This document shows positions 1 through 40,465 of a stretch of DNA of 64,000 nucleotides, piece after piece. The stretch comes from Saccharopolyspora gregorii (GTDB lineage: Bacteria > Actinomycetota > Actinomycetes > Mycobacteriales > Pseudonocardiaceae). The DNA lies in assembly GCF_024734405.1 (NCBI RefSeq), contig NZ_CP059556.1, positions 3,906,001 to 3,970,000 of the forward strand, given 5' to 3'. Below the pieces are notes generated by a model, which was given only the letters and a program-made list of their open reading frames with translations, searched no databases and had not been told where the DNA came from. Position 1 is the stretch's first letter; every line of letters starts with the position of its first letter. The position numbers were made by a program, and so were the translations under genes.

Positions 1-3000
1 GGCCGCCGTCGTCGTAGAGATCGATGTCCACTTTGGTCACGTCCCGGTCGGGGGCGGGCTCGTAGCCCGCGGTGTGGCGCAGGTGTGCCCACATGCGCGC
101 GGTGGTGGGGGTGAAGAGGTCGACGTGCTCCAGCGCGAACGGCAGCGCGGGGGCGCCGCGGCGTTCGGCAAGCGCGCCGGTGGCGTCGCCGTGCAGGCCG
201 ACGACGGCTTGGACGGCGCCGTCCAGCATCGCCGGGTGCAGCGCGAACTCGCCGGGATCACCGGTGTCCGCGGGCAGTTCCAGCCGGGCCAGCACCTCAC
301 CGTCCCCTATGGACAGACCTTGCACGGCGCGCAGCCGGTCGCCGTGCCGGATGCCGACGGCCTCCAGCGCGTCGTGGCACTGCTGCCGGGTGAGGGTGCG
401 GCGGGAGCAGCGGGCGCGCAGCACGTCGAGGGATTCCGGTTGCGCGGCGGCGGGTTCCGCGATGCGCCCCTGGGCGTGCACCTCGGTGCCGTCGCGCAGC
501 ACCCGGAACGCGTCGCCGTCGAGGCGCACCGCCAGTTCCGCGCCGCCGTCGGCGACGGGGAACGGCGCGGGCCACACCACGTCGCGCAGCCGCAGCGGGG
601 CGGTGCGGTCGCCGGTGATGGCGCGGTGCGCGAACTCCAGCGAGAGCACACCCGGCAGCACGGCCCGGCCGTTGACGTGGTGGTCGGCGAGGAAGAACTC
701 GTCGCCGGTGAGCCGGGTGCAGTAGGCGGGGTTCACCGGGGCGGTGACCTCCGCGGTCCGGGCGGTGGCCTGCGCGCTCCGCGGTGCCACGGGCACGGCG
801 ACGGCCCGCTCCGCCGGGGCGGTGGCGGCGGGTGCGCCGAAGCCCGTCGCGGCCGGCCGTTCGATCCAGTACCGCTGCCGCTCGAACGGGTAGGTCGGCA
901 GCGGCATCTGGCGGCGCGCGGCGGACGGGAAGCTCGCGGAGAACCGGTCCACCTCGCCGCGCACGTACGCCCACGCGAGCCCCTGCGGGGCGAGCGCGCG
1001 GTCCCCGTCGGCGGGCCGCGGATCGGCGGCGGTCTCCCCCACCAGCACCTCGGTCCCGGCGGTCCCGTCGAGCCAGCCGCGCAACCGCTCGGCCAGCGCG
1101 GGCAGGTCGGCGGCGGTCGTGGCCAGCCGGTGCGGGAAGTGCGCGCGCCCGGCGGCGAGGCTGTGCGCGACGGCTCCGGCCGGCAGGCCCGGCTCCCGGT
1201 CGAGGTGTGCGAGCAGCCGCCGCACCACCTCGCGCAGCGCGGTCGGAGTGCGCGCCGAGAGCAGGAACGCGTGCTCGCCGGGGGTGACGGCGACCGGTGC
1301 GCCGCGGTGCTCCTCCAGCACCACGTGCGCGTTGGTGCCGCTGGCGCCGAACGAGCTCACCGCGGCGCGGCGCGGCCCTGACGGGGGTTCCGGCCAGTCG
1401 CGGGTGTGCCGGTCGATGCGGAACGGGCCGCCGTCGAGGGCGAGCGCCGCGTTCGGCTCGCCGAAGCCGGGCCAGCCGGGGATCCGCCGGTGCCGCAGCG
1501 CCAGCAGCGACTTCAGCACCCCGGCGATCCCGGCGGCGAACTGGGTGTGGCCCAGGTTGTTCTTGATGGTGCCCAGCGAGGCCGATCCGGCGGGGGCGCC
1601 GGCGAAGGCGCGGGTGAGCGCGCGGAACTCGATGGGGTCGCCGAGCTGGGTGCCGGTACCGTGCGCCTCCACCAGCTGGATGCCGCCGGGTTCGATCCCG
1701 GCCTCGGCGTGCACCTCGCGCAGCAGCCGCTCCTGGGAGGCGGCGCTGGGCGCGGTGAGGCCGTTGGTGGTGCCGTCCTGGTTGATGCCGGTGGCGCGGA
1801 TCAGCCCGTACACGTGGTCGCCGTCGCGTTCGGCGTCGGCGAGCCGCTTCAGCAGCACCGCGCCCGCGCCCTCCCCGGGCACGAACCCGTCGGCGCGGGC
1901 GTCGAAGCCGTGGCAGCGCCCGGTCGGCGACAGCATCCCGGCGCGGCTCGCCGAGCGGTACAGCCGCGGCGTCGTCTGCACGAACACGCCACCGGAGATC
2001 GCCAGGTCGGTCGCGCCGGAGCGCAGGTCCCGGCAGGCCAGGTGCAGCGCCACCAGCGAACTGGAGCAGGAGGTGTCGGTGGTCAGCGCCGGTCCGCGCA
2101 GGTCCAGCTGGTAGGCGATGCGGGAGGCGACGACCGAACCCATCGTGCCCCACAGCGCCTGCGCGGGCGGGGCGTCGTCGAGGTGGTCGTGGTAGTCGCC
2201 GGTGTAGCAGCCGACGTACACGCCGCAGTTGCGCTCGCGCAGCCGTTCGCCGGTGTAGCCGCCGTCTTCGAGGGCGTTCCAGCACTGCTCCAGGAAGATC
2301 CGCTGCTGCGGGTCGGTGTAGGTGGCTTCGACGCCGGACATCGCGAAGAACACCGGGTCGAACCGGTCGATGCCGCGCAGGAAGCTGCCGGAGCGGCAGG
2401 TGATCTCGGGGCCGAGCTGCCAGCGGGTGACGGGTTCGAGCAGGTCCGCGCCCGCGACGAGGTGGTCCCAGAGGGCGTGCGGGTCTTCGGCGTCGGCGTA
2501 GCGGGCGGCCATGCCGACGACGGCGATCGCCTCCTGCTGCCCGGCGGCGGAGTCCGCTGCCGCCGCGGCGGTGCTCCCCGTTCCGGCGGGGGATCCCGGG
2601 CCGGTCGTGGTCTCGTCCCGCTCGGCCCCGGGCGAGCGCAGCGCCGTGCCGTAGGTGTCGAGCAGGTGGGCCCGCAACCGTTCGACGCTGCCGTGGTCGA
2701 ACAGGTCGGTGGTCTCCAGCTCGGTGCCGAAGGCCGCGTTGAGGGTGTGCACCAGGTCGACGCCGAGGATGGAGTCCAGGCCGTGGTCGGCGAACGGGCG
2801 GCGCCGATCGATCTCGGCGACCGGCATGTCCAGTGCCTCGCCGACCGCGTCGAGCAGCACCCGCTCCACCTCGGCGGGCGAGGCCGCGGGCCGCTCGGGA
2901 GTGCTCGCGGCGGTGCCCTGCTCGACGAGGTCTCCCCCGGCGGTGCCGTTCGCCGCGGTGCCCTGCTCAGCGGTGTCGTTCGCAGCGGTGCCCTGCTCAG

Positions 3001-6000
3001 TGAGGTCGTTCGCAGCGGTGGCGTTCGCGGGTGACGAGTTCTCCGCGCGGGCGTCGTCGGCGCCCCCGAGCGGGAACCGGCGCCCCGCGAACGGGTAGGC
3101 CGGCAGATGCACCCGCCGCTCGACCGGCCGCAGCGCGGTCCAGTCCAGCGGCATGCCCTTCGCCCAGAACGCGGCGAGCTCGCCCAGCTCGCCCCGGGCG
3201 ATCCACTCCGCGACGAGCGCGCGCAGTTCTTCCTTGCCCGCCAACGCGTTCAGCGTCTCCCGGGCGGCGCGGACCCGGCCGCGGTGCCACGGCCCGCCGC
3301 CGTCGGGGTCGGCGAGGAAGTCGCGCAGCCGCCCGCGGAACTCGGCAGCGGTGCTCGCGAGGAAGCACACCCGCTCGTCCATCGGCTCACGCCCGAGCTG
3401 CAGGGTCGCGGCGATGGCGGGCAGGTCCGGGTCCGCGGCGGCGTCCAGCCACCCGGCGAGCCGCGCGGCGCGGGCCAGCAGGTCCTCGGTCGTGCGGGCG
3501 GACAGCGGCAGCAGCACCGCGTGCGGCTCGACCGGGCCGACGGGCCCGGTCCGGTGCTCGGCGAGCACCAGGTGCGCGTTGGCACCGCCCGCGCCGAACG
3601 AGGACACCCCCGCGATCCGCGACCGGTCGTCCGCGGCCGGCCAGTCGGCGGCGGTGGTCTGCAGGACGAACGGGGTGGTGGCGAAGTCGATGTCGGGGTT
3701 GGGCCGCTCGGCGTGCAGCGTGGGCGCGAACGCGCCGTGCTCCAGCTGCAGCACGGCCTTGGTGAGCCCGGCGATGCCCGCCGCCGCTTCCAGGTGGCCG
3801 ATGTTGGACTTGGCGGAGCCCAGCGCGCACCGCTCGGCCTGCCCGGCGAACGCCTCGGTCAACCCCTCGACCTCGATCGGATCGCCGAGCCTGGTGCCGG
3901 TGCCGTGCGCCTCCAGGTAACCCACTTCTCCGGCGGAGACGCCCGCGCGGTCCAGCGCCTCGCGCACCACGGCCGCCTGCGCACGCGGATTCGGCACGGT
4001 GTAGCCGTTGCTCCGGCCGCCGTGACCGATGGCGGAGCCGAGCACGATCGCGCGGATCGGGTCGCCGTCGGCCTCCGCCCGCGACAGCGGTTTGAGCAGC
4101 ACCGCCCCGACTCCTTCTCCGGGCACGAAACCGTCGCCGCCGTCGCCGAAGCTGCGGCACGCCGGCCCGGAGGCGAGCATCCGGGAGCGGCACAGCTCCA
4201 CGTAGGTCGACGGGTGCAGGTAGAGGTTCACGCCCCCGGCGATGGCCAGTTCGCAGTCGCCGTGACGCAGGTGCTCACATGCCTCGTGGATCGCGGTCAG
4301 CGAGGACGAGCACATGGTGTCGATCGGCATGCTCGGCCCGCGCAGGTCCAGCAGGTAGGAGACGCGGTTGGCCAGCGAGGCGAACGAGGTCCGCGGCGCC
4401 GCGTCCGTGCGCTGACCGGTCCGGTCGAAGCCGTTCTTGGTGATCCCGGCGAACACGCCGACGCGGCCGCCGTGCCGGTCGGCGAGACGCGCCCGGGTGT
4501 AACCGGCGTCCTCCAGCACCGACCAGGCCGCTTCCACGAACAACCGTTCCTGCGGGTCCACGTCGGCGGCCTCGCGGGGGGCGATGCCGAAGAAGGCGGC
4601 GTCGAAGCGGTCGAAGTCGTCCAGGAACGCGCCCCACTTGCCGTAGCTGGCGCCCCGCTGCACGGCGCGTTGCGCGTCGGGTTCGTGGAAGCCGTCCAGC
4701 GACCAGCGCTCGGCGGGGATCTCGCGGACGCTGTCGCGCCCGGTGCGCAGGTTGTGCCAGAACTCGTCGAGGGTCGGGGCGTCGGGGTAGCGGCCGGTGA
4801 GGCCGATGATCGCGATGGGTTCGGCGGGGTCGAGCGGGCGGGCGGGCCGCGGTTCGGCGCCGGCCGACTCAGTGCTGGCCGGTTCGGCGCGGGCCGACTC
4901 GACGCTGGCCGGACCGGTGCGGGCCGGTACGGCGCTGGTCGACTCGGCTCTGGTCGACTCGGCTCCGGCCGGTTCGGCGCTGGCCGGGCCGGTGTCGGCC
5001 ACCGGCTGCTCGGGCGCGCTGTCCGCGAGCCACCGCCTGCACCCCTCCGGGTCCCGTTCCGCGAGGTGCCCGGCGAGGTCGTGCAGCGTCGGGTGCTGGT
5101 AGAGCAGGGTCTTCGGCAGCGCCCCGAACCAGCGCGCGAAGGCCCGGTTCAGCCGGGTCACGGCCAGCGAGTCGATGCCGAACGAGTCCAGCGGCGCGGC
5201 CGCGTCGAGCTTCGCCGGGTCCAGCCGCACCGTCGCGGCGACCAGCTCCTTCAGCGCGGGCAGCACCGCCGCCCGCAGTTCTCCCGGTCGCTCCGGCACG
5301 TCGCCCTCCTCGTCGATGACCAGCAGTTGGGGTGCTCCGACGGCCAGCGCCTCGCGCAGGGCGCGCAGCGCGGTGCCGGTCGCGAGCGGGTGCCCGAAGC
5401 GGGCGGTGAGCGCCGGGACCTCCTCGGCGGCGACCCGCATCCCGCCGTCCTGCCACAGCGGCCAGCCGATCGAGGTGCTGGTCCCGGAGCGGGTGCCTGC
5501 GGCGACGAGCTCGGCGCGGTGCGCCAGGTGGGCATCCAGGAAGCCGTTCGCGGCGGCGTAGTCGCCCTGCCCGGGGTTGCCGAGCGTCCCGGCGCCGGAG
5601 GAGAACGCGGCGAAGAAGTCCAGCGGCAGGTCGCGGGTGGCCTCGTCCAGGTGCACCAGCCCGGCGACCTTCGGCGCCAGCACCCGCTGCGCCTGCTGGA
5701 AGGACTTGCGGATGAGGTAGTCGTCCTCGACCAGCCCGGCGGCGTGCAGCACGCCGTCGAGCCGGCCGTGCGCGCGCACCACGTCGGCGACGAGTGCGGC
5801 GACGGCGGCGCGGTCGGTGACGTCGAGGCGCCGGTACTCGCCGTGCGGCACCTCCCGCGACTCGGACCGCCCGCACAGCACCAGGTGCGCGCCGGGGGCG
5901 TGCCGGGCGGCGTCGGCGGCGAGCAGCCCGCCGAGACCGCCCGCTCCCCCGGTGAGCAAGTAGACGCCGCCGGACTTCCACGGCACCGGCGCGTCCGGTC

Positions 6001-6535
6001 GCGACACGGGTTCCCAGTCCCGCACCCGGCGGCGGCCGCCGTCGTACCGGACGTGCTCGTCGGCGGATCCGAGCTCGGCGGCCAGCACCCGCGCGAGTTC
6101 CGGCCCGGCGGGGACCCGGTCGAACTCGACGAGCTGCCCGCGCAGCCCCGGGTCCTCCTGGGACGCGGTGCGCAGCAGCCCGACGAGTCCGGCGTACCCG
6201 GTCGCGGTGCCCGCCGGGCACACGACCTGCACGTGGCACGGGCCGCCCGCGGTGAGCACCCGCTGGAGTTCGCCGAGCAGTCGGGTGGCGGCGTGCTCGA
6301 AGCCCGCGGCGGCACCGTCCGCGCGACCGTCCACCTGCGCCACCGACACCGCGGCGGACCGCAGCGCGGCGGCCTCGGTGCCGGGGACGTCGCAGAGCAC
6401 GACGAGCCGCCGGGCGGCGACCGGTTCGGCGCCGGGCCGCGCCGGTGCGTCGCGCCAGATCGGCAGGCGGAGGATCGGTCGACTCACGTGGGGCTCCGTT
6501 CGGGGGCGCGGTGGCGCGGGCTCGTGGTCAGGCAT
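1..6535 (-). CDS. trans-AT type I polyketide synthase 2 (partial, runs off left edge)
   Basis: Second PKS of the operon; the reading frame is open to base 1, so the C-terminus is missing. ATG at 6535 overlaps the PKS 1 stop by 8 bases. Domains in order: KR (nucleotide motif GGVYLLTGGAGG from about residue 189; active-site stretch with S and Y in GNPGQGDYAAAN), ACP (GIDSL, Ser456), KS with Cys742 in IDTMCSSS plus HGTGT and SNIGH histidines, ACP (GLDSI, Ser1255), KS with Cys1490 in TDTSCSSS, then DH with DHHVNGRAVLPG near residue 1952 and the LHPAMLDGAVQ motif. No AT domain follows any KS, only the residual post-KS linker (HLPAYPF), so malonyl units must come from the discrete AT upstream. The N-terminal KR-ACP completes the module whose KS ends PKS 1. 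The next module (KS-ACP) has no reductive domain and should leave a ketone. Linkers at about 2930-3020 and 4870-4990 are repeat-rich. Confidence 0.93.
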   Translation of the reverse strand, partial: MPDHEPAPPRPRTEPHVSRPILRLPIWRDAPARPGAEPVAARRLVVLCDVPGTEAAALRSAAVSVAQVDGRADGAAAGFEHAATRLLGELQRVLTAGGPCHVQVVCPAGTATGYAGLVGLLRTASQEDPGLRGQLVEFDRVPAGPELARVLAAELGSADEHVRYDGGRRRVRDWEPVSRPDAPVPWKSGGVYLLTGGAGGLGGLLAADAARHAPGAHLVLCGRSESREVPHGEYRRLDVTDRAAVAALVADVVRAHGRLDGVLHAAGLVEDDYLIRKSFQQAQRVLAPKVAGLVHLDEATRDLPLDFFAAFSSGAGTLGNPGQGDYAAANGFLDAHLAHRAELVAAGTRSGTSTSIGWPLWQDGGMRVAAEEVPALTARFGHPLATGTALRALREALAVGAPQLLVIDEEGDVPERPGELRAAVLPALKELVAATVRLDPAKLDAAAPLDSFGIDSLAVTRLNRAFARWFGALPKTLLYQHPTLHDLAGHLAERDPEGCRRWLADSAPEQPVADTGPASAEPAGAESTRAESTSAVPARTGPASVESARAEPASTESAGAEPRPARPLDPAEPIAIIGLTGRYPDAPTLDEFWHNLRTGRDSVREIPAERWSLDGFHEPDAQRAVQRGASYGKWGAFLDDFDRFDAAFFGIAPREAADVDPQERLFVEAAWSVLEDAGYTRARLADRHGGRVGVFAGITKNGFDRTGQRTDAAPRTSFASLANRVSYLLDLRGPSMPIDTMCSSSLTAIHEACEHLRHGDCELAIAGGVNLYLHPSTYVELCRSRMLASGPACRSFGDGGDGFVPGEGVGAVLLKPLSRAEADGDPIRAIVLGSAIGHGGRSNGYTVPNPRAQAAVVREALDRAGVSAGEVGYLEAHGTGTRLGDPIEVEGLTEAFAGQAERCALGSAKSNIGHLEAAAGIAGLTKAVLQLEHGAFAPTLHAERPNPDIDFATTPFVLQTTAADWPAADDRSRIAGVSSFGAGGANAHLVLAEHRTGPVGPVEPHAVLLPLSARTTEDLLARAARLAGWLDAAADPDLPAIAATLQLGREPMDERVCFLASTAAEFRGRLRDFLADPDGGGPWHRGRVRAARETLNALAGKEELRALVAEWIARGELGELAAFWAKGMPLDWTALRPVERRVHLPAYPFAGRRFPLGGADDARAENSSPANATAANDLTEQGTAANDTAEQGTAANGTAGGDLVEQGTAASTPERPAASPAEVERVLLDAVGEALDMPVAEIDRRRPFADHGLDSILGVDLVHTLNAAFGTELETTDLFDHGSVERLRAHLLDTYGTALRSPGAERDETTTGPGSPAGTGSTAAAAADSAAGQQEAIAVVGMAARYADAEDPHALWDHLVAGADLLEPVTRWQLGPEITCRSGSFLRGIDRFDPVFFAMSGVEATYTDPQQRIFLEQCWNALEDGGYTGERLRERNCGVYVGCYTGDYHDHLDDAPPAQALWGTMGSVVASRIAYQLDLRGPALTTDTSCSSSLVALHLACRDLRSGATDLAISGGVFVQTTPRLYRSASRAGMLSPTGRCHGFDARADGFVPGEGAGAVLLKRLADAERDGDHVYGLIRATGINQDGTTNGLTAPSAASQERLLREVHAEAGIEPGGIQLVEAHGTGTQLGDPIEFRALTRAFAGAPAGSASLGTIKNNLGHTQFAAGIAGVLKSLLALRHRRIPGWPGFGEPNAALALDGGPFRIDRHTRDWPEPPSGPRRAAVSSFGASGTNAHVVLEEHRGAPVAVTPGEHAFLLSARTPTALREVVRRLLAHLDREPGLPAGAVAHSLAAGRAHFPHRLATTAADLPALAERLRGWLDGTAGTEVLVGETAADPRPADGDRALAPQGLAWAYVRGEVDRFSASFPSAARRQMPLPTYPFERQRYWIERPAATGFGAPAATAPAERAVAVPVAPRSAQATARTAEVTAPVNPAYCTRLTGDEFFLADHHVNGRAVLPGVLSLEFAHRAITGDRTAPLRLRDVVWPAPFPVADGGAELAVRLDGDAFRVLRDGTEVHAQGRIAEPAAAQPESLDVLRARCSRRTLTRQQCHDALEAVGIRHGDRLRAVQGLSIGDGEVLARLELPADTGDPGEFALHPAMLDGAVQAVVGLHGDATGALAERRGAPALPFALEHVDLFTPTTARMWAHLRHTAGYEPAPDRDVTKVDIDLYDDGG

Positions 6536-12500: not shown

Positions 12501-15500
12501 CGCGGCGCCGCCGAAGGCACCCGCGACGGAACCGAACAGCAGCAGGAAGTCCAGGTCGAGGTCCTCGGTGGCGGCCGCCAGGTGCGCGGTGCCGTCGACC
12601 TTCGGGGCGAGCACGGCGGTGGTTCTCGCGAGGGGTTTGGTGGCGAGGTAGCCGTCGTCGAGCACCCCGGCCGCGTGGAACACGCCGTCCAGGCGCCCGT
12701 GCTCGGCGCGGATGGTGCGGACCGCATCCCGGACGCTCGCGGCGTCGGTGACGTCGGCCCGCACGTAGTGCACCCGCTCGTGCGGCGGGGTGGGCGCCTG
12801 CTCGGAGCGGCCGCTGACCACCACGGTCGCGCCGTGCCGGACGCACAGGTGCTCGGCGAGCAGCCGCCCGATGCCCCCGGCGCCGCCGGTGATCCAGTAG
12901 ACGCCGCCGGTGCGCAGCAGGCTCTCCCCCGCCGCTGCGGCCGGGAGCTCGGTGGTCTCGTGGCGCCACCGCCGCCCGTCGCGGGTGTGCGCGACCTCGG
13001 CGTCCTCGGTGGCGGCTTCGGTGTGCACGGCGCGTTCGAAGCGGGCCGCGTCGCGCGGGTCGAAGCCGTCGAGGAGCACCAGCGTGCCGCGGAACGCCGG
13101 GTCCTCCAGCCGCGCGGTCTTGAGCAGCGCCGCCAGCGGCCCGAACACCGGCGAGTCCGGTTCGCCGGGCGCCACCACCAGCACCCGGCCCTTGCCGAGG
13201 CGTTGCAGGTGCGCGTAGCAGCTCTCGAACGCGGCGCGCATCGCGATCGCGTCGGTGGTCCCGGCGGGCACCGGCAGCGGCAGCACCTCCGCGCCGAGCC
13301 GAGCCGCGCTCGCGGGCACCAGGTCGTCGTCCAGGGCGGCGTTGAGCACCACCACCGGCCCCGCCCTTCCCTCCGATGTGGACGGTGCTTCGACCCAGTT
13401 CCCGGTGACCTCCAGCAGGTCGTGGCCGGGTTCCGCGGCCGGTTCGCCGCCGAGGGAGCGGGCGGTGTAGCCGGTGAACCGGACGCACAACCGGCCCGCG
13501 TCGTCGAGCAGGTCCACGTCCACCTTGCCGCGCCCGCGCGCGCCCGCGGCCGGGCGCAGCCACGCGTGCGCGGTGGCGGTGGTCGCGGCGGGCGCGGACA
13601 GCTCGTCCAGCGCGAACGGCACCGCGGGCGCCGACGGTTCCCGCCAGCCGCCGTCCGGGCCGCCGACCGCGAGCGCGGCGAGCAGCGCGCTGTCCAGGAT
13701 CGCGGGATGCAGCCGCGGCCCGGGCGCCGCCGCTGCGGGCAGCCGCAGCTCCGCCAGCACCCCGTCCGGGCCGGTGCGCACCGAGGTCAGCGCGCGCAGC
13801 GCGGGTCCGTGCTCGATGCCGCTGGCCCGCAACGCCGCGTACCCGGCGTCGGCGGCCAGCTCCCGGGGGTGCCGTGCGCGCAGCTCGGCCAGGTCCACCG
13901 ATTCCGTCGCGTCCGCACCGGGTTCGACGCGGCCGCTCGCGTACGGTTCGCCCGCCGCATCGGCGAGCGCGTAGTCGTGCCCGTCGCCGCCGGGGGTCAG
14001 CCGCAGCCGGGCGTCCAGCCCGTCCGGCCCGACGGCCAGCGGGCGGATCCACACCGCGTTGCGCACCCGCGGCGTCCGGTGCCCCGCGGCCCGCGCGGCG
14101 GCCAGCGCCAGGTCCAGCACGGCCACGCCCGGCACGATGCGGGTGCCGCCGACGACGTGGTCGCGCACGTAGCCCTGGGTGTCGTCGAAGCGCACCGGGA
14201 AGGTCCAGTCGTCGCCGGAGCGCTCCCCGGCGCCCAGCGCGGCGGTCTCGGGCGCGGCGGGCTCGGGCACGGCGGTCTCGGACGCGGCGGTCTCGGACGC
14301 GGCGGTCTCGGGCGCGGGGCTCTCGGACACCGCCGGGGCCGGGGCTTCGACGGGCCGCGGGCTCAGGTTCGACGGCGCGGTGGGCGTGAACCAGTGCGGG
14401 GTGCGGGCGAACGCGTAGCCCGGCAGGTGCAGCCGCCGCCCCTGCGCCGGCCACTGCGACCAGTCCACCGGCAGCCCGGTGGCCCAGGCGGCGGCGAACT
14501 TGTCGTACCGCCCCTGCTCCAGCCAGCGCGCGCCGAGCTCACCGAGGTCCTCGGCGTCCAGCCCGGCGGGCACGTCCTCGCCCGCGCGGCCGCGCTCGCA
14601 CCCGGCGGGGCGTTCCCCGACGGCGAGGGATTCCAGCTGGTCCGCCCAGGTCTCCAGGTCGGTGGCGCGGAACGCGGCGCGTTCGGCCATCGGCACCCGG
14701 CCGTCGCGCAGGGTGCGGGCGATGTCCGCGAGCGCGGGCCGCTCGCCCCGCTCGACCCGCCGCCGCACCCAGTCCGCGAGCACCGCGCAGCTCGCCCGCA
14801 GCCGTTGCTCGTCGCGCGCGGACACCGGCAGCCAGTGCTCGCCCGGCCGCTCCGCGTCGGCGGGGACGTCCGCCCCGGATTCGAGCAGCACGTGCGCGTT
14901 GGTGCCGCCGAAGCCGAAGGAGCTCACGCCCGCCCGCAGCGGCCCGGGCGCCTCCCAGTCGGTGAGCTCGGCGACGACGTGCAGCGGGCTGCCCGCGAGC
15001 TTGATCAGCGGGTTGAGCTTGCGGAAGTGCACCGTCCCCGGCAGCTGCCGGTGCCGCATCGCGAGGATCACCTTGAGCATCCCGGCGACGCCGGCGGCAC
15101 CTTCCAGGTGGCCGATGTTGGTCTTCACCGAGCCGACGCCGCAGCGGTGCTCGGCGGGCACCTCCGCACCGCCGCGCAGGTCCGCGAACGCCTTCTTCAG
15201 CCCGCGGATCTCGATCGGATCGCCGACCGGGGTGCCCGGGCCGTGCGTCTCCACGTAGCTCACCGTCTCCGGCGCGACGCCCGCTCGCCGGTAGATGCCG
15301 CTGATCAGCTCGGCCTGCGCGTCCGGGTTGGTGACGGTCAGCGAGCTGGTGCGCCCGCCGTGGTTGCTGCCGATGCCCTTGATCACCGCGTGCACCGGGT
15401 CGCCGTCGCGCCGCGCGTCCGCGGCCCGCTTGAGCAGCACCACGCCGCCGCCCTCGCCGCGCACGTACCCGTTGGCACCGGCGTCGAACGCGCGGCACTT

Positions 15501-16181
15501 CCCGTCCGGGGAGAGCATCCCGGCCTTGGCGAACGCGATGAAGTGCCGCGCCGACCAGGTCAGGTTCACCCCGCCCGCCAGCGCGTACTCGCAGTCCCCC
15601 GTCAGCAGCGCCTGCACGCCCTGCTGCACCGCGACCAGCGAGCTGGCGCAGGCGGTGTCGTTGACGACGCTGGGCCCGCGGAAGTCGAAGTGGTGCGAGA
15701 CGCGGTTCGCGATGATCGCGTAGGCCGCGCCCGTCGGGTAGTAGGCGTCGACCTCGGCGACCTCCTGCTCGACGAGCTCCGCGTAGTCCCAGTGGCACAC
15801 GCCCAGGAACACCCCGGTCGCCGAGCCGGCGAGCCGGTCCGCCCGGTACCCCGCGTCCTCCACCGCGTGCCAGCTGAGTTCGAGGGCCATCCGCTGCTGC
15901 GGGTCCATGGATTGCGCTTCGCGCGGGGAGATCTGGAAGAACTCGGCGTCGAAGCAGTCCACGTCGTCGACGAACCCGCCCCAGGCGCAGCTGGTCTTGT
16001 TGAACTCGCGGCGCGGGTCGCCGAGGTGGTCCTCCTTGCGCCAGCGCCGCTCCGGGACCTCGCTGATCAGCGAGCGTCCCGCGGCCAGGTGTTCCCAGAA
16101 CTCGTCCATCGTCCGCGAGCCGGGCAGGCGCAGCGAGGTGCCGATGATGGCGATGTCGTGGTCATCGGTTCCGTGGTCCAT
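6528..16181 (-). CDS. trans-AT type I polyketide synthase 1 with KS-B branching module
   Basis: A 3217-residue multienzyme. Module 1: KS (Cys178 in NDTACASS, His313 in THGPGTP, TNIGH), DH (HVVGGTRIVPG, His675), KR (GGVYWITGGAGGIG near 1093, LDD motif typical of B-type ketoreductases, YAAAN), ACP (GIDSI near 1384). Module 2: KS (Cys1701 in VDTMCASS, unusual EGHGSATSLGDP), then a roughly 270-residue DH-like region (about 2140-2410) without a normal DH active site, in the place of the branching (B) domain of glutarimide PKSs, then ACP (GFESI near 2471). A third KS (Cys2725 in IDTACSSS, EAHGTGT, KTNIGH) ends the protein; its KR and ACP are on PKS 2. No AT domains are present. Module 1 should give an alpha,beta-unsaturated thioester, which KS-B can attack to close a six-membered imide from a malonamyl starter. 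The domain order is seen; the chemistry is inferred from characterised glutarimide synthases. Confidence 0.95.
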   Translation of the reverse strand: MDHGTDDHDIAIIGTSLRLPGSRTMDEFWEHLAAGRSLISEVPERRWRKEDHLGDPRREFNKTSCAWGGFVDDVDCFDAEFFQISPREAQSMDPQQRMALELSWHAVEDAGYRADRLAGSATGVFLGVCHWDYAELVEQEVAEVDAYYPTGAAYAIIANRVSHHFDFRGPSVVNDTACASSLVAVQQGVQALLTGDCEYALAGGVNLTWSARHFIAFAKAGMLSPDGKCRAFDAGANGYVRGEGGGVVLLKRAADARRDGDPVHAVIKGIGSNHGGRTSSLTVTNPDAQAELISGIYRRAGVAPETVSYVETHGPGTPVGDPIEIRGLKKAFADLRGGAEVPAEHRCGVGSVKTNIGHLEGAAGVAGMLKVILAMRHRQLPGTVHFRKLNPLIKLAGSPLHVVAELTDWEAPGPLRAGVSSFGFGGTNAHVLLESGADVPADAERPGEHWLPVSARDEQRLRASCAVLADWVRRRVERGERPALADIARTLRDGRVPMAERAAFRATDLETWADQLESLAVGERPAGCERGRAGEDVPAGLDAEDLGELGARWLEQGRYDKFAAAWATGLPVDWSQWPAQGRRLHLPGYAFARTPHWFTPTAPSNLSPRPVEAPAPAVSESPAPETAASETAASETAVPEPAAPETAALGAGERSGDDWTFPVRFDDTQGYVRDHVVGGTRIVPGVAVLDLALAAARAAGHRTPRVRNAVWIRPLAVGPDGLDARLRLTPGGDGHDYALADAAGEPYASGRVEPGADATESVDLAELRARHPRELAADAGYAALRASGIEHGPALRALTSVRTGPDGVLAELRLPAAAAPGPRLHPAILDSALLAALAVGGPDGGWREPSAPAVPFALDELSAPAATTATAHAWLRPAAGARGRGKVDVDLLDDAGRLCVRFTGYTARSLGGEPAAEPGHDLLEVTGNWVEAPSTSEGRAGPVVVLNAALDDDLVPASAARLGAEVLPLPVPAGTTDAIAMRAAFESCYAHLQRLGKGRVLVVAPGEPDSPVFGPLAALLKTARLEDPAFRGTLVLLDGFDPRDAARFERAVHTEAATEDAEVAHTRDGRRWRHETTELPAAAAGESLLRTGGVYWITGGAGGIGRLLAEHLCVRHGATVVVSGRSEQAPTPPHERVHYVRADVTDAASVRDAVRTIRAEHGRLDGVFHAAGVLDDGYLATKPLARTTAVLAPKVDGTAHLAAATEDLDLDFLLLFGSVAGAFGGAAQADYAAANAHLDAFALRRQATGAETRVLDWPLWADGGMRMDAATTAYLRKRTGTVPLPTEAGLAAIERALRTGSPVRRVVLHGERAKLRVYAGLDRPVAAVPAPAAPMPRPAAPAVELDDAELAERAQDFLRAVFAEVTRQDPDGILADEKLEHYGIDSIAIVDLTSTLEDSFGSLPKTLFFEHVDLRGVAEYFVAEHRERLLELVAPVESTVEASDESAAAGSDAAGPQGRPVLEPAVAATTSTIPATPAAAIPATAGTSATATPDSAGSPVAATTSSIAATPTATTTPRPADPRHDPGRHDIAVVGMAGRYPGADTLEEFWDLLSEGRHSFETVPASRWRHGDIHFDERDVLGKTVVRTGTFLRDVDAFDPRYFNISQRNAEIMSPEVRLFLQTGVTALEDAGYSRETLRRRYDGDVGVLVGSMNNSYAYYGFQNMLQRGTTTSGSEVGVMANMLSYHYGFTGPSVFVDTMCASSAACVHQAVRLLRDGETRMVVVGGINLMLHPYDLISTSQAHFTTKSADVVRSYGLGADGTILGEGVGAVVLKPLGEAVADGDHVYGVIKGSGLTNAGVRNGFTVPSPQQQARAVERALDDADVDARTISYLEGHGSATSLGDPIEIKGASLAFGRDTDDTGFCALGSVKSNVAHLLSGSGLVGLTKVLLQLRHRTLAPSLHSETLSPAIDFDATPFAVQRERAAWERPVVRGEQVPRRAGITSIGAGGINVHLVVEEHDGTVVAAPDSGGPQLLVFSAMTPQALRTVLGDLRDHLGSARPGLDALAYGLQTGKNELPCRLAFVATDARHALERLTALSGVDLTADAPVLPEGVEFVASTLRQRRAANAATVEQAVADRDLAALARHWSQGAAVDWDRLWPLGTRPAKLSLPAYPFERVRCWYPEFDDAPSVLRPLAFTRRAHPWVGENRSDLHGVRYELKPRGDELLDYVHTAGRKRRYATLALLDGALAFARVAGIDGPLRVRDAEWAALPAPADETETLEWRLGGASGAHRVELRHADGTPRFAATVEAVAGQRVPDVPVDVPDELDQDGFYAALGAAGLDARPYSRSVEGVARLRDGRLLVRVGEPALCQDPHKRHVHVPAWVLAGVLQGVQHALGDPDATALRVAELHGEELDRTRVLVLDRVADAEFRIDLADERGRVLGRIDRAEFGTGELPGSVRGSAVAVVPALAAPVADPSSAAAPESTSDDESRLVRALRETVADQLKFDLAEIDADTHFHAYGFESIALATLATELNGLLGVELSPAVFFECPNIRSLAEHLRERWPDRAAASEQTAAAPAQAASAPAQAPPERAPAAPAPLGPAQQPPAAESASDAVAVVGAAGRFPGAACLDEFWQRLRAGDDLVTPYPGDRFDERYTDTVARTDFPKFAGQLADVDRFDAGFFNLSRLEAELMDPQQRLALETTWAALENGGYAPARLPERTGVYFGVSGNDYHQLLNASGVAPDGYTATGNAHSVLANRISFVLDVHGPSEPIDTACSSSLVALHRAVQDIRSGRCEMALAGGVNLLLSVDTFAATQQTGMLSPDGRCKTFAADADGYVRAEGVAVVLLKPLAAAVRDGDAIWGVVRGSAENHGGRAGSLTAPNGVAQAALVREAMGELDPGSIGYVEAHGTGTALGDPVEVNALATAYRDLGGPGPDGRPWALGSVKTNIGHAESAAGLAGVLKVLLAMRHRELPPTLHCDRLNPHLPLSGGEFEVVRRGQVWEPRADANGRAWPLRAGVSSFGFGGANAHVVLEAPPRPRRTPADGGPQAVLLSARDDERLREAARRLRDHLRGAPATELPELAHTLQVGREAMERRLGLVAGSVEQLAGALDRYLAGDSSGLHVGGVPRSRGTGVRRGTAHSPEVARALRDGRLDEVVRLWCDGSDVDWSVLHPAGTGVVRLPGYPFARERYRVPDSAPGNHWNDRENPGARRGTGSVVRKTAALAEETAVVDGRSPEAGFDTGAYAALLDAVLDDRLGPDALSDA

Positions 16182-16292
16182 CGAAGTCGTCTCCGTCTCA
16201 GCACCGGTGCCGCTGCGGCCCGCGTCGGCTCGTCCGGTCGTGGTCGTGCCCGTCCCGCGCGCCCGACCGGGGCGGCCCGCGGGACTCGGAGG

Positions 16293-18260
16293 TCAGGCGG
16301 CCGCGCAGGTGCGCTCGTCGACGACCCGCAGGGGCACCTTCAGGGGATCGCGGTTCAGACCGTGCCCGCGCACGAACCAGTGGTGCAGCCACACCGTGGA
16401 GGCCAGCAGCACGAACGCCTGGTTCTCCTTGGTGCCGATGCGTTCCGGCGGGGCGTCGTAGACGCGGTTGACGAACTTGCGCACGAACCGCGCGTCCAGG
16501 GCGGGGATCTCGCCGAGCACGTCCGGGTCCAGCAGCAGGTCCCGGTAGTCGGGCCGGGAACGCACGAACACCGCGGAATCCGGCGCGCGGTAGGGGAACT
16601 TGCCCTTCTTCACGATGCGCTCCGGCAGCACGTCCGCGTAGGCCAGCTTCAGCAGGTGCTTCTCGTCGTAGGGGTCGCCGAAGCGCCCGTTGACCGAGTT
16701 CGCGCGGCGCACCACCGCCGGATCCAGGAACGGGCAGCGGTTCTCCACGCCGTGCGCCAGCGCCATCCGCTCGCCCTGGGTGGACAGCAGGTAGCCGGCC
16801 AGCAGGGTGCGGAACTCCAGCCACTGCGCCTTCCGCACCGGGTCCAGTTCGGCGTAGCCGGGTTCCTCGGCGACGAGCCGTTCCACCGCGGCCAGCGGAT
16901 CGCCGGGCTCGGCGAGCAGCCGGGCCGCGAACCGGCCGTTCTGGAACCGCATCTGGTGCGAGAACAGGCCGGGCCGCTGCTCGGTGGAGAACTGCTGGTA
17001 GAGCCCCAGCATCCGGCGCTGCTCGTCGGCGCCGCTGAAGTGCGCCAGGTACGGGTGGAGCCGCCCCATCCGCTCCCGGCGGGTCTCGTCGTCGAGCGCG
17101 TCCCACTCGGACAGCAGCCGGGTGTCCTTGAAGATGCCGTAGCCGAGGAACGCCTCGTCGGCGCCTTCGCCGCTGAGCACCACCTTGATGCCCTCGCGCC
17201 GGACCTGCCGGGACAGCAGGTGCATCGGCACGAACGCGGTGCGGAACGCGGGCACTTCGGCGTGCCGGACGGCGTCGGGGAACGCTTCGGCGACGTCGGC
17301 GTCGGTGACGCGCAGCTTCGAGTGGTGGGTGCCGAGGTGCGCGGTGAGCTCGTCCTGCTCGGCGGACTCGTCGAACTCGGCGTCCTCGAACTCGATCGAG
17401 AACGTCCGAAGTGGACGGTCGGTGCGGCGGGCGGCGAGGTGCGCGATGATCGACGAGTCGAGGCCGCCGGAGGCGTACACCCCGACCTCCACGTCGCTGC
17501 GCAGCCGCACGTCCACCGCGCGTTCCAGGTCGCCGCGCACCAGCTCCACGGCCTCCTGCTCCGACTCCGGCGCCGGGCCGGGGGTCAGGTCCAGCGGTGC
17601 CCACCGGCCGCGCCGCTCCTGGTCACCGCGCACCGACAGGTACTCGCCCATCGGGACCTGCTCGATCCCGCGGTAGCCGCTGTGCGCGGGCAGCGGCGTC
17701 CAGGTCGCGTAGAGCGAGGCCAGCTGGTCCGGGTCGAACTCGAAGCGGAACCCCGGGTACGCCAGGAACGCCTTCATCTCGGAGGCGAACAGCAGGGCGC
17801 CGTCGTGCCGGGCCACGAACAGCGGCCGCTTGCCGTACCGGTCGCGGGCCAGGTGCAGCTCATCGGTGACCGCGTCGTGCACGGCGAACGCGAACGCCCC
17901 GTTGAACTTCGGCAGGCAGTCCGGGCCCCACTCCGCCCACGCGTTCAGCACCACCTCGGTGTCCGACCCGGTGCGGAACGCGGCACCGCGCGCCCGCAGC
18001 TCGGCGCGCAGCTCCCGGTAGTTGTAGAGCTCGCCGTTGTAGCACAACCGGAATCGCCGGTCGGCGCTGAGCACGGGCTGCTGGCCGCCGGCGAGGTCGA
18101 TGATGCTCAGCCGCACCGTGCCCATCGCGATCCGGTCGTCGAGCAGGCAGCCCGCCTCGTCCGGGCCGCGGTGCTCGATCTGGGCGAGCATGTCGTGCAT
18201 CAGGTCCGCGTACTCCCGCGGAGGGCGCGGGCTGCGGTAGAACCCGGCGATGCCGCACAT
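16293..18260 (-). CDS. asparagine synthetase-like amidotransferase (malonamyl-ACP starter formation)
   Basis: Class II glutamine amidotransferase plus ATP-pyrophosphatase, 655 residues, the usual size for AsnB. Start chosen at the MCGIAGFY methionine so that the catalytic cysteine is residue 2; the frame is open 12 codons further upstream but those would bury it. Seen: Cys2, NGELYNY (about 75-81), GSDTEV (about 98-103), and the PP-loop SGGLDSS at 264-270. It begins 4 bases after the ACP stop and lies 111 bases before PKS 1. Enzymes of this family in glutarimide polyketide pathways convert malonyl-ACP to malonamyl-ACP, which primes the first KS; the position next to a free ACP and a trans-AT supports that role here. 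Primary asparagine synthesis is a less likely alternative given the operon. A minor possibility is amidation of the finished chain. Confidence 0.88.
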   Translation of the reverse strand: MCGIAGFYRSPRPPREYADLMHDMLAQIEHRGPDEAGCLLDDRIAMGTVRLSIIDLAGGQQPVLSADRRFRLCYNGELYNYRELRAELRARGAAFRTGSDTEVVLNAWAEWGPDCLPKFNGAFAFAVHDAVTDELHLARDRYGKRPLFVARHDGALLFASEMKAFLAYPGFRFEFDPDQLASLYATWTPLPAHSGYRGIEQVPMGEYLSVRGDQERRGRWAPLDLTPGPAPESEQEAVELVRGDLERAVDVRLRSDVEVGVYASGGLDSSIIAHLAARRTDRPLRTFSIEFEDAEFDESAEQDELTAHLGTHHSKLRVTDADVAEAFPDAVRHAEVPAFRTAFVPMHLLSRQVRREGIKVVLSGEGADEAFLGYGIFKDTRLLSEWDALDDETRRERMGRLHPYLAHFSGADEQRRMLGLYQQFSTEQRPGLFSHQMRFQNGRFAARLLAEPGDPLAAVERLVAEEPGYAELDPVRKAQWLEFRTLLAGYLLSTQGERMALAHGVENRCPFLDPAVVRRANSVNGRFGDPYDEKHLLKLAYADVLPERIVKKGKFPYRAPDSAVFVRSRPDYRDLLLDPDVLGEIPALDARFVRKFVNRVYDAPPERIGTKENQAFVLLASTVWLHHWFVRGHGLNRDPLKVPLRVVDERTCAAA

Positions 18261-18264
18261 GGCG

Positions 18265-18519
18265 TCACCGGCTTTCGAGCGCCCGCTCGCGGGCACCGTC
18301 GACGAAGGCGGCGATGCCGTTGAGCGACACCATGACGTTGCCGAGCAGCTCGTCCTCCTCGAACTGCACGCCGTAGCGCTCCTCGATGTGCGTCATCAGC
18401 GAGATGTAGCCGAAGGAGTCGAGGATCCCGGCCTGGAACAGGTCGGTGTCCTCGGTGGTCTCGGCGTCGAACTCGAACAGGAACTGCTCTTCGAGGTAGT
18501 CCTTCAACTCGTCCTTCAT
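18265..18519 (-). CDS. discrete acyl carrier protein
   Basis: An 84-residue acidic protein with the 4'-phosphopantetheine attachment motif around Ser35 (GILDSFGY) and the expected four-helix ACP length. ATG at 18519 follows a GGAGGAC ribosome binding site. It lies 44 bases after the AT-TE stop and 4 bases before the amidotransferase start, so the three genes are almost certainly co-translated. In ATtrans glutarimide clusters a free ACP is loaded with malonate by the discrete AT, then amidated by the amidotransferase to give the malonamyl starter. LDSFGY rather than the more common DSL is typical of stand-alone carrier proteins. The protein is complete and shows nothing odd. Confidence 0.9.
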   Translation of the reverse strand: MKDELKDYLEEQFLFEFDAETTEDTDLFQAGILDSFGYISLMTHIEERYGVQFEEDELLGNVMVSLNGIAAFVDGARERALESR

Positions 18520-18563
18520 CGCGGTCCTCCGCATCGTCGTCGTGGTCGTCCCGGAACCGGCCG

Positions 18564-20108
18564 CTACGCGGCGAACGCGGAACCGGCGATCCGGGCCAGC
18601 GCGGGCCACTGCTCCCGGATGAAGAAGTGGTCGCCGGGGAACCGGTGGGTGCGCAGCGGCCGGGTGCTCTCCCGCTGCCAAGCGCCGATGTCGTCCCCGG
18701 TGAACCACTCGTCCTCGCCGCTGAGCGCGGTGATGGGCACGTCCAGCGGTGGCACGCGCGGGTGCCGGTAGGCGCCGAGCGCGGTGAAGTCGGCGCGCAG
18801 GATGCGCTCGTAGAACGCCAGCAGGTCCGCGTGCTCGCGCAGTTCGGCGGGCAGTCCGCCGAGGCGGTCCAGGTGCGCCCAGAACTCGGCGGTGGGCAGC
18901 CGCCAGGTGTCGCGCTCCCGGCTGGGGAGGGACGGCCCGCTCTCGCCGGAGACGAGCAGGTGCGCGGGCGCGGGCAGCCCTTCCTCCCGGATCCGGTGGC
19001 ACAGCAGGAAGGCGAGCCGCGCGCCGAGGCTGTGCCCGTACAGCGCGTACGGCCGGTCCAGCCGGTCGCGCAGCTGCGCCAGCAGGTCGTCGACGATGGC
19101 GCCGGGGTCGGTCAGCAGCGGTTCGGAGATCCGGGCGCCGTGCCCGGGCCGTTCCAGCACCGCCACGTCCAGGTCGGTGTGCTCGGCGAGCCCGGCGTAG
19201 GCGCGTTCGTCGCCACCGGCGTAGGCGACGCAGAACAGCCGGGGCCGCGGTTCCGCGGCCTCCGGGGTGGCCTCGATCTGGCGGACCATGCGGGTGAGCA
19301 CCTGGGTGTCGCCGACTTCCCGGCAGTCGTCCAGCCCGGTGTGCCGCAGCAGGTAGCGGACGCTGTCGAGCCAGCGCACCGACCCGGCGATCTGCTCGCT
19401 GAGGGTGGCGGCGAGGTCCCGCTCGGCGTAGGGGCGGGCGGTGAGGTTGGCGATGACGGTGGCGCGCAGCGGCGCGAACCGGAATCCCTTGAGGAACGCG
19501 GCGAACTCGTCGCGGGCGGGTGCCATGTGCCGGGAGTGGAAGGCGGCGGAGACCTTCAGCCGCGCGACCCGCACGTCCTGCTCGCCGAGGACCTGCTGGG
19601 CGCGCTCGATCCGCTCCCGCTCCCCGGAGAGCACCAGCTGCGCATCGGTGTTGATGTTCGCGAGGTCCAGGTCGGTGAGCCCGTGCTCCACGAGCAGCGC
19701 GCGCAGCTCGGCGCGCGAGGTGCCCAGCACGGCGAGCATCGCGCCACCACCGGCGCGGGACATCAGCTCACCGCGCTTGAGCACCAGCTTCAGCCCGGTC
19801 TCGAAGTCGAAGGCACCGGCCGCGTGCAGCGCGTTGTACTCGCCGAGGCTGTGCCCCAGCAGGTAATCCCCTGCCGGCGCACCGCGTTCCAGCGAGTCCA
19901 CGTAGGACAGCGCGTTCACCACGTACAGCGCGGGCTGGGTGCAGCGGGTGTCGTCCAGGCGACCGTCCGGGTTCCGCGCGCACAGCTCGGGCAGGTCGTA
20001 GCCGAGCACGTCGCAGGCGCGGGCGGTGAGCTCGGGGTGCCGCTCGAACAGCTCGGCGCCCATCCCGGGGCGCTGCGAGCCCTGGCCGGGGAACAGCACC
20101 GCGCTCAC
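18564..20108 (-). CDS. discrete trans-acyltransferase fused to a type II thioesterase
   Basis: A 514-residue two-domain protein. Residues 1-about 280 are a FabD-like malonyl-CoA:ACP transacylase: FPGQGSQ at the N-terminus, nucleophile Ser87 in GHSLGEY, catalytic His191 in AAFHSRHM. Residues about 290-514 are an alpha/beta hydrolase of the type II thioesterase family: Ser360 in YGHSLGAR, Asp466 in SGEDEWF, His494 in PGDHFF. All catalytic residues of both halves are present. The AT half should load malonyl units in trans onto every ACP of the AT-less PKS; the TE half probably removes stalled or wrongly primed acyl groups. GTG start at 20108, preceded by GGAGG, overlaps the stop of a short leader ORF. 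First large gene of the PKS operon. AT fused to other enzymes is known in trans-AT systems; which half limits the pathway cannot be told from sequence. Confidence 0.92.
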   Translation of the reverse strand: MSAVLFPGQGSQRPGMGAELFERHPELTARACDVLGYDLPELCARNPDGRLDDTRCTQPALYVVNALSYVDSLERGAPAGDYLLGHSLGEYNALHAAGAFDFETGLKLVLKRGELMSRAGGGAMLAVLGTSRAELRALLVEHGLTDLDLANINTDAQLVLSGERERIERAQQVLGEQDVRVARLKVSAAFHSRHMAPARDEFAAFLKGFRFAPLRATVIANLTARPYAERDLAATLSEQIAGSVRWLDSVRYLLRHTGLDDCREVGDTQVLTRMVRQIEATPEAAEPRPRLFCVAYAGGDERAYAGLAEHTDLDVAVLERPGHGARISEPLLTDPGAIVDDLLAQLRDRLDRPYALYGHSLGARLAFLLCHRIREEGLPAPAHLLVSGESGPSLPSRERDTWRLPTAEFWAHLDRLGGLPAELREHADLLAFYERILRADFTALGAYRHPRVPPLDVPITALSGEDEWFTGDDIGAWQRESTRPLRTHRFPGDHFFIREQWPALARIAGSAFAA

Positions 20109-20155
20109 GCCGCCTCCGCCACGCGGGTCCGGTGCAGCGGCTCGGCTGTTCGCAT
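20105..20155 (-). CDS. 16-codon leader ORF coupled to the trans-AT gene
   Basis: Short ORF starting at ATG 20155 behind a good CAGGAGG ribosome binding site. Its TGA overlaps the GTG start of the AT-TE gene (GTGA). The peptide is rich in Arg and Ala and resembles no domain. It may be a translated leader that sets translation of the operon, or a chance ORF using a ribosome binding site that really belongs to the mRNA leader. Only its signals and overlap support it. Confidence 0.35.
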   Translation of the reverse strand: MRTAEPLHRTRVAEAA

Positions 20156-20236: not shown

Positions 20237-20261
20237 TCTTCAGAACCACCATTCCGGCACG

Positions 20262-20302
20262 TCTAAGGAAATCACCAGGCGCACTTCTAGGGAAATCACC
20301 AG
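20262..20302 (-). promoter_or_regulatory. two tandem PAS-LuxR (PimM-type) operator-like boxes
   Basis: Two copies of TCTARGGAAATCACCAG at 20262-20278 and 20286-20302, 24 bases apart and differing at one position. Their 16-base cores match the published PimM consensus CTVGGGAWWTCCCBAG at 14 and 15 of 16 positions. They lie upstream of the -35 of the PKS operon. No PAS-LuxR gene is in the window; it would be expected beyond the left edge. Confidence 0.55.
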
Positions 20303-31221: not shown

Positions 31222-31431
31222 GTAATCCCCACGCACGCGGGGATGGGCCCTCGACGGCCGACCGCATCGAGGGCGGTGCGGAGTAAGCCCGCGCACGCGG
31301 GGATGGGTCCACCTGCTGGCCCTGCCGGGCGATCGCGGCCCGGTAAGCCTCGCGCACGCGGGGATGGGCCGGGCCGGGGCCGGTTCATGGCTGGATATCC
31401 GTCGTAAGCCCCGCGCACGCAGAAGTGGAGC
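31222..31431 (+). CRISPR. small decaying type I-E CRISPR array (4 repeats, 3 spacers)
   Basis: Repeats start at 31222, 31283, 31343 and 31404 (periods 61, 60, 61). They share the core CGCACGCGGGGATGGG preceded by GTAAK, the type I-E repeat of actinomycetes. Repeat 2 lacks one base; repeat 4 has lost its 3' half, marking the leader-distal end. Repeat 1 also differs from the others at two places. Spacers are about 33, 32 and 33 bases at 31250-31282, 31311-31342 and 31371-31403. The 65 bases upstream (31157-31221) are the least GC-rich stretch nearby and fit a leader. No adaptation or interference genes are adjacent; the only cas gene seen is the solitary cas7 at 21.4 kb. Confidence 0.88.
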
Positions 31432-39556: not shown

Positions 39557-40465
39557 GTGCTCAAGCAGCGTTTCCACCAGGTCGCGGTCGCCGCGCTGGC
39601 CGCGCTCACCCTCGCGGGGTGCACCGGCGGCGTGAGCGCCGTGCCCGCCACCTCGGCCGCCGTTCCCCCCGCGTCCGCCGCCACCGCGCGGCAGGCCGAG
39701 TTCGACGAGCTGGAGCGGCGGTTCGACGCGCGCCTCGGGGTGTACGCGCTGGACACCGGGACCGGCCGGGAGGTCGTGCACCGCGCCGACGAGCGGTTCG
39801 CGTTCGCCTCCACGCACAAGGCGCTGTCCTCCGGCGAGGTGCTGCGGCGCAACTCCCCCGCCGACCTGGACCGCCGCATCACCTACTCGCAGGCCGACCT
39901 GGTCGAGAACTCGCCGGTCACCGAGCAGCACGTGGCCGACGGCCTCACCCTGCGCGAGGTGATCGACGCCGCGATCCGCTACAGCGACAACACCGCGGCG
40001 AACCTGATGTTCCGCGAACTCGGCGGACCGGCCGAAATGACCGCCGCGCTGCGCGGGCTGGGCGACACCACGACCCGCTTCGACCGGACCGAGACCGACC
40101 TGAACCTGACCTCCCCCGGCGACCCGCGGGACACCAGCACGCCGCGCGCGCTCGCCACGAGCCTGCGCGCCTACACCACCGGTGACGTGCTGGCGCCGGA
40201 GCAGCGGGCGCTGCTCAACGAGATGATGGGCGCCAACACGCTCACCACCGACCTCATCCCGGCCGGGGTGCCCGCGGGCTGGCGCGTCGGCGACAAGTCC
40301 GGTGCCGCGAACCACGGCACCCGCAACGACATCGCGGTGATCTACCCGCCGAACCGGGCGCCGATCATGCTCTCGGTGCTGTCGGACCGGGCGGCGGTGG
40401 ACGCCGAGTACGACGACGCGCTGATCGTCGAAGCCACGAAGATCGCCACCAGCGCCCTGAACTGA
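39557..40465 (+). CDS. bla: class A beta-lactamase, lipoprotein-type signal
   Basis: A 302-residue serine beta-lactamase: S85-T-H-K88, SDN 143-145, ETDLN (Glu179, the Glu166 equivalent) and KSG 247-249. The N-terminal signal carries a lipobox (LAG before Cys22), so the enzyme is probably lipid-anchored outside the membrane. ATG at 39557 follows GAAAGGGAAG. All residues for penicillin hydrolysis are present. Divergent blaA-like and blaB-like genes suggest induction by beta-lactams. It ends before a convergent intergenic region holding a large hairpin element. Confidence 0.94.

Follow-up and report, generated by a model that had tools for sequence, protein, structure and literature searches.

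The question raised by this locus is which member of the glutarimide polyketide family it encodes. The original prediction, drawn from the left part of the window (the whole 64,000-nucleotide stretch of DNA analysed, G000:C1:3906001-3970000, in a genome of one 6.34-Mb contig), proposed a cycloheximide-like product and a host outside Streptomyces. The latter is borne out by 16S comparison, the host scoring 95.3% to Saccharopolyspora ipomoeae, 91.0% to Streptomyces sioyaensis, 89.7% to S. griseus, 89.6% to Kitasatospora and 88.5% to Nocardiopsis. By these values the host belongs probably to the Pseudonocardiaceae. An intact and real glutarimide trans-AT polyketide synthase (PKS) cluster is found in the window and to its left. 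It covers ~50 kb (genome 3875942-3926108, minus strand), ~20 kb of which lie in the window (1-20108, minus strand), and the leftward extension that had been asked for completes it to ten genes with ten KS domains. Transcription in the window runs from an AT-TEII gene via a free ACP, an amidotransferase (AMT) and PKS1 to PKS2, which crosses the left edge (Table 1). Beyond that edge lie the remainder of PKS2, PKS3 (2003 aa) and an AT-ER gene (814 aa; PfaD-family ER, 593 bits vs a cut-off of 449) and then, in this order, genes of the MDR oxidoreductase, SAM methyltransferase and P450 families. The genes beyond, which code for a SNF2 helicase and a periplasmic binding protein, do not appear to belong to the cluster.

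All elements of the predicted series (AT, ACP, amidotransferase, KS-DH-KR-ACP, KS-B-ACP, KS/KR-ACP, KS-ACP, KS-DH) were recovered on the minus strand. Two of them need amendment: the AT is present, though as part of an AT-TEII fusion and not simply discrete, and the last KS-DH belongs to a module running on with KR, MT and ACP outside the window. Pfam E-values of the domains named in the window extend from 1.4e-6 (free ACP) to 6e-246 (KS), so chance is excluded. AT, free ACP and asparagine-synthetase-like AMT all adjoin the PKS, the arrangement by which a glutarimide trans-AT PKS is recognised. PKS2 as a whole reads KR-ACP, KS4-ACP, KS5-DH-KR-MT-ACP, KS6-KR-MT-ACP, KS7-ACP, KS8-DH-KR-ACP-ACP, KS9-DH, and PKS3 reads ACP, KS10-DH-KR-ACP-TE, the TE forming its C-terminal end. 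Ten KS domains (modules being counted as KS domains) and a terminal TE are the make-up of the lactimidomycin/iso-migrastatin subfamily.

Table 1. Features of the cluster part that lies in the window (window coordinates)
Feature	Position	Strand	Evidence or remark
AT-TEII didomain (LtmB/MgsB-like)	18564-20108	-	AT ~19254-20108, thioesterase ~18588-19241
Free-standing ACP, 84 aa, starter carrier	18265-18519	-	PP-binding 1.4e-6
Amidotransferase (AMT), glutamine-dependent	16293-18260	-	Asn_synthase 1.2e-70, GATase_7 7.8e-43; N-terminal MCGIAG, SGGLDSS motif
PKS1, 3217 aa	6528-16181	-	KS1-DH-KR-ACP-KS2-B-ACP-KS3
KS1	14892-16166	-	Cys and both His present
DH, first module	13422-14261	-	HxxxGxxxxP present
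KR, first module	12372-12926	-	domain match and alignment
ACP, first module	11919-12110	-	GIDS motif
KS2 (branching KS)	10317-11597	-	best stretch of two RhiE chains falls here
B (branching) domain	8937-9776	-	RhiE-preferring profile; Asn at aligned DH catalytic His position
ACP after B	8652-8873	-	Pfam
KS3, first half of module 2 (split across PKS1/PKS2)	7242-8498	-	83% to PDB 4QYR, 406 columns
PKS2, window part	1-6487	-	whole gene 8175 aa, genome 3887960-3912487; start candidates GTG 6487 or ATG 6535
KR, module 2	5426-5977	-	domain match and alignment
ACP, module 2	5054-5263	-	GIDS motif
KS4 (module 3, KS-ACP)	3572-4819	-	4ZDN match, 928 bits
ACP, module 3	2657-2863	-	GLDS motif
KS5 (module 4)	1325-2530	-	Pfam and alignment
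DH, module 4, cut by window edge	2-733	-	PKS_DH_N 7.6e-13, PS-DH 5.4e-18

The cluster is very probably of the iso-migrastatin/lactimidomycin type, presumably making iso-migrastatin or a near congener. The first indication comes from the AT. Its reading frame matches Pfam Acyl_transf_1 (6.5e-30) and exceeds the cut-off of the FabD equivalog model, and residues 290-507 match Pfam Thioesterase (2.1e-38), so that the protein is a fusion of an AT with a type II thioesterase. The latter probably clears stalled acyl chains. The distribution of this fusion was surveyed in 29 of at least 80 loci (L035-L062 and L076; L064, L067 and L069, with AMT-like matches of 40-43%, were left out). Among the loci listed, a TEII match occurs in all eight with an AMT identity of at least 72% (S. 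sioyaensis, S. acidicola, S. nanshensis, Nocardiopsis, S. chattanoogensis, Saccharothrix coeruleofusca, S. ruber and Amycolatopsis rifamycinica) and in none of the 18 with an AMT identity of 54-60%, of which L043 and L056 also gave no AT match. L043, from a record titled uncultured Cyclobacteriaceae, carries a glutarimide-type block with ACP, AMT (54%), KS-DH-KR, KS-B and KS3. In PMC11775670, the AT-TEII of LtmB/MgsB is called the only known example.

The same assignment is suggested by the KS domains. PDB entry 4QYR is the top match for KS3, while for KS4 and KS6 the entries 4ZDN and 4TKT are second to 7ZMA only, whose total adds up two KS domains, neither of them above 577 bits (KS4 comparison). 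We take 4QYR to be KS3 of the iso-migrastatin protein MgsE, and 4ZDN and 4TKT to be KS4 and KS6 of MgsF; if so, the three entries match the cluster at collinear positions. The link to iso-migrastatin would run via these PDB entries rather than via named mgs or ltm sequences. KS3 was compared with the 4QYR fragment (411 residues) for 19 of the 26 loci with a KS3 match, plus the congener G001. Identities were 97.3% for S. sioyaensis, 95.0% for S. chattanoogensis, 87.6% for S. acidicola, 84.7% for G001, 83.4% for Nocardiopsis, 82.8% for the window, 82.0% for S. ruber and 78% for Saccharothrix and Amycolatopsis; the KS3s of eleven TEII-less actinomycete clusters reached 61-68%, and that of L043 60%. 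Within the TEII clade the window KS3 is no nearer to 4QYR than those of S. ruber or Nocardiopsis.

Beyond single domains, G001 and S. sioyaensis have all ten genes in collinear order (protein identity 76-90% and 63-80%, respectively), and the domain order is identical in the three clusters; two S. sioyaensis ACPs fell below threshold, namely one without the phosphopantetheine Ser (recovered in a later alignment) and the one before the TE. The free ACP is 88% identical in G001 and 70% in S. sioyaensis; the P450, oxidoreductase and methyltransferase reach 76%, 71% and 64%, respectively, in the latter. Ma et al. in 2013 and Seo et al. in 2014 are said to have defined the tailoring set of oxidoreductase, O-methyltransferase and P450 as MgsI, J and K. 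Genes of these three kinds (MDR oxidoreductase, SAM methyltransferase, P450) stand here in the MgsI-MgsJ-MgsK order; they are placed by family and not by an mgs reference sequence, and none reaches an NCBIfam cut-off.

It is on these tailoring genes that the strongest alternative turns, a lactimidomycin-type pathway in which the same PKS would be followed by a desaturating P450 and the product would carry no methoxy group. Neither the PKS alone nor KS3 similarity tells lactimidomycin from iso-migrastatin: the KS3 of S. chattanoogensis is 95.0% identical to the 4QYR fragment, in a genome without a methyltransferase match at E 1e-60. P450 matches (60% and 59%) but no methyltransferase at that threshold were also obtained for two members of the clade, S. 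nanshensis and A. rifamycinica. The AT-TEII, too, is shared with LtmB (PMC11775670). Against this stand the methyltransferase and MDR oxidoreductase located between AT-ER and P450, in an order kept in S. sioyaensis and G001, LtmK being the only known ltm tailoring enzyme. Overall, a lactimidomycin-type pathway appears unlikely, and iso-migrastatin or a near congener remains the favoured product.

The methyltransferase was searched in eight whole genomes, S. coeruleofusca (L040) being excluded. Four of them gave a match of E 1e-60 or below (G001, S. sioyaensis, Nocardiopsis and, interrupted by a single stop, S. acidicola), and in each carrier it adjoins the best P450 match (72-90%); in Nocardiopsis the pair lies on a 22-kb contig separate from the AMT contig. 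At this threshold no match was seen in S. nanshensis, S. chattanoogensis, S. ruber and A. rifamycinica, an absence that is no proof because some of the genomes are drafts. A more far-reaching reading is that the product is an undescribed iso-migrastatin congener, and that the cluster is one of several unrecognised iso-migrastatin-type clusters (Nocardiopsis, Saccharothrix, Amycolatopsis, Saccharopolyspora) in which gain or loss of the O-methyltransferase switches between migrastatin-like and lactimidomycin-like products. This reading is prompted by the divergence of the tailoring enzymes from their S. sioyaensis orthologues (24-36%) and by the new host lineage; we offer it tentatively and regard it as rather unlikely.

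The cycloheximide-like product originally proposed has to be given up on account of module count and AT-TEII. First modules and AMT are indeed shared with cycloheximide or 9-methylstreptimidone-like pathways, and the congener G003 carries a different glutarimide-type locus (AMT 58%, AT without TEII match); in a survey of the genus, AMT matches above 55% identity occurred in three of six members, the window genome included. Conversely, ten KS domains are found vs the five-module core of the cycloheximide/9-methylstreptimidone type (PMC4853412), an AT-TEII is present, and the AMT is just 54-60% identical to those of TEII-less loci. A pathway of this type is highly improbable, and AT-TEII, ten KS, TE, AT-ER, methyltransferase and P450 together point to the lactimidomycin/iso-migrastatin line.

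The glutarimide machinery itself had been predicted from the starter genes and the KS-B module, and here B profile and AMT phylogeny agree with the prediction. A profile built from 26 B regions (the window and 25 of the 29 surveyed loci, a B match being absent in the other four) retrieved two RhiE chains first (91 bits, 1.1e-24, positions 1-294 of 297). The next solved chain follows at 52 bits (6e-13), with 26 further chains from 52 bits down; among those 26, the RzxB and CurK chains are presumably DH domains. With the window B sequence alone, the two RhiE chains were the sole matches at 0.01 (1.2e-6, 82 residues). Pfam DH gave no stretch over the B region at 1e-5, and Asn is invariant in all 26 regions at the aligned DH His position. 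By sequence, the kinship of the B domain is with RhiE B and not with DH. In the AMT tree (99 sequences of at least 450 aa with no stop, midpoint-rooted), the window groups with AT-TEII loci in a clade of ten tips (support 1.0), which in turn lies inside a glutarimide clade of 29 tips, also with support 1.0. The remaining 70 tips, among which primary AsnB is not marked out, fall outside, and the intervening nodes are weak (0.22-0.67). An ordinary DH after KS2 combined with a primary AsnB, which would yield no glutarimide ring, draws on the AMT scoring above the cut-off of the general asparagine synthase model TIGR01536 and is scarcely conceivable, both parts being rejected: the DH on the 39-bit lead of RhiE over the next chain and on the invariant Asn, the primary AsnB on the position of the window within the glutarimide clade. 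The first PKS block, KS-DH-KR-ACP-KS-B-ACP by Pfam and alignment, comprises seven domains; seven conserved domains are likewise given for the glutarimide first block in PMC7756379, from which the order is not taken.

From genes, domains, active-site residues, collinearity and phylogeny we infer the following route to an iso-migrastatin-type product. Malonate would be loaded onto the free ACP by the AT-TEII or by the AT of the AT-ER. Malonyl loading is assigned to LtmH/MgsH in the two nearest systems (PMC7756379); the AT-ER is taken to be their counterpart here by position. The AMT, judged from its sequence, would turn malonyl-ACP into the malonamide, forming malonamyl-ACP, and extension by KS1-DH-KR would give an unsaturated amide thioester. 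To this, KS2 and the B domain may join another malonyl unit in a vinylogous Michael addition, upon which the amide nitrogen would close the glutarimide ring. A scheme from malonyl-ACP to malonamyl-ACP, extension, Michael-type branching and cyclisation is described in PMC7756379 and PMC4853412. Module 2 (KS3, with its KR on the next protein) would provide a hydroxyl and module 3 (KS-ACP) would leave a ketone; KS3 with a KR-ACP, followed by KS4-ACP without KR, is consistent with the product start glutarimide-CH2-CH(OH)-CH2-C(=O)- that had been proposed. Eight further units would be added by KS3/KR, KS4, KS5-DH-KR-MT, KS6-KR-MT, KS7, KS8-DH-KR, KS9-DH and KS10-DH-KR, before the TE releases the chain, most likely as a 12-membered macrolactone. 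Enoyl reduction may be supplied by the AT-ER and the MDR oxidoreductase, with the P450 oxidising and the methyltransferase methylating the ring. Iso-migrastatin has three methyl branches and a C1-C18 chain; the second MT found here, in module 5, fits the former, and the nine C2 units after KS1 fit the latter. In DMSO-water, iso-migrastatin is converted to migrastatin (PMC12843350). In the Streptomyces lines, methylation in both module 3 and module 4 seems to be the work of a single MT, located in module 4 (PMC7756379).

Of the active-site residues, Cys and two His are kept in ten of ten KS (KS1 and KS2 read by eye), and Lys, Ser and Tyr in all six KR, the usual Asn being absent from the two KR in MT modules (alignment reading). 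The first of the two ACPs of module 7 reads GFDR and lacks the phosphopantetheine Ser; the same ACP is Ser-less in G001 (GFDR) and S. sioyaensis (GFDP), so that a sequence error is improbable. The last DH of PKS2 was at first taken as dead for its missing HxxxG pattern, a reading that was rejected as His (DDHRVRD) and Asp are present; an insertion between the two is common to the three clusters. Domain searches found no KR or DH in module 6 and no DH in module 5. As several modules lack domains that the product would need, the collinear product prediction is loose, which is also stated for glutarimide lines in PMC7756379.

Several features outside the cluster should be noted. A solitary Cas7e-like gene (PF09344; 21120-22469, plus strand) is divergent to the AT-TEII gene, the Cse1 and another Cas7 of the genome being ~1.27 Mb away. 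It stands beside the same cluster in G001 (63%) and was not found in the 26 named loci examined, whose sequence extends no further than 10 kb upstream of the AMT. About 150 bases upstream of the AT-TEII gene lies a 24-nt repeat unit (1.9 copies, 90% match; 20257-20302), possibly a regulator site. Three CRISPR-like repeats of 28 nt with spacings of 60 and 61 (31222-31370) lie in a lower-GC 4-kb stretch, and a beta-lactamase enzyme family protein (PF13354, 4.6e-43) is encoded at 39557-40465 (plus strand). Further PKS loci are located at 1.83-1.91 Mb, 2.60 Mb and 4.49 Mb of G000:C1; 19 of 29 KS-linker matches fall outside the cluster, mostly at 1.83-1.91 Mb.

Among known systems, mgs of Streptomyces platensis NRRL 18993 is the closest counterpart, sharing AT-TEII, ACP, AMT, three PKS genes, AT-ER and, by family, oxidoreductase, methyltransferase and P450. 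We take the mgs order B to K to be the one matched here; an mgsA equivalent was not identified in the window cluster. KS3 is 83% identical to the 4QYR fragment, taken to be from mgs. The differences are the host genus and the 63-80% protein identity to S. sioyaensis orthologues, which stand in for mgs. The ltm cluster of Streptomyces amphibiosporus shares AT-TEII (LtmB), AMT, the long PKS and the P450, and presumably has no counterpart of the methyltransferase and MDR oxidoreductase. For chx (cycloheximide) and smd (9-methylstreptimidone), the loci of S. griseus and S. himastatinicus served as stand-ins; these have an AT without TEII and AMTs 58% and 57% identical. According to PMC7756379 and PMC4853412, respectively, chx and smd resemble the window cluster in AT/ACP/AMT and first modules and differ in having fewer modules. 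Gladiostatin/gladiofungin of Burkholderia gladioli has the glutarimide starter block and a trans-AT PKS as well (PMC7756379), but an AfsA-like release instead of a TE, and an AH-AT-ER tri-domain. The partly available literature searched yielded no complete iso-migrastatin cluster from a host other than Streptomyces, which may still be in print; the nearest published case there comes from Pseudomonas syringae, whose secimide is migrastatin-like but truncated, its PKS equalling the first six migrastatin modules without the final four (PMC7930024). Iso-migrastatin belongs to a class of molecules that stop protein synthesis in eukaryotes. On the eukaryotic ribosome, glutarimides block the E site, and some of them inhibit the migration of tumour cells (PMC7756379). 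Compound class and assembly logic have already been described, and the cluster is a well-predicted further example. Intact, with ten KS, and located in a one-contig genome of a host other than Streptomyces, it represents a new source strain and, together with the eight relatives in which the methyltransferase was looked for, forms a natural series for asking how macrolactone tailoring switches.
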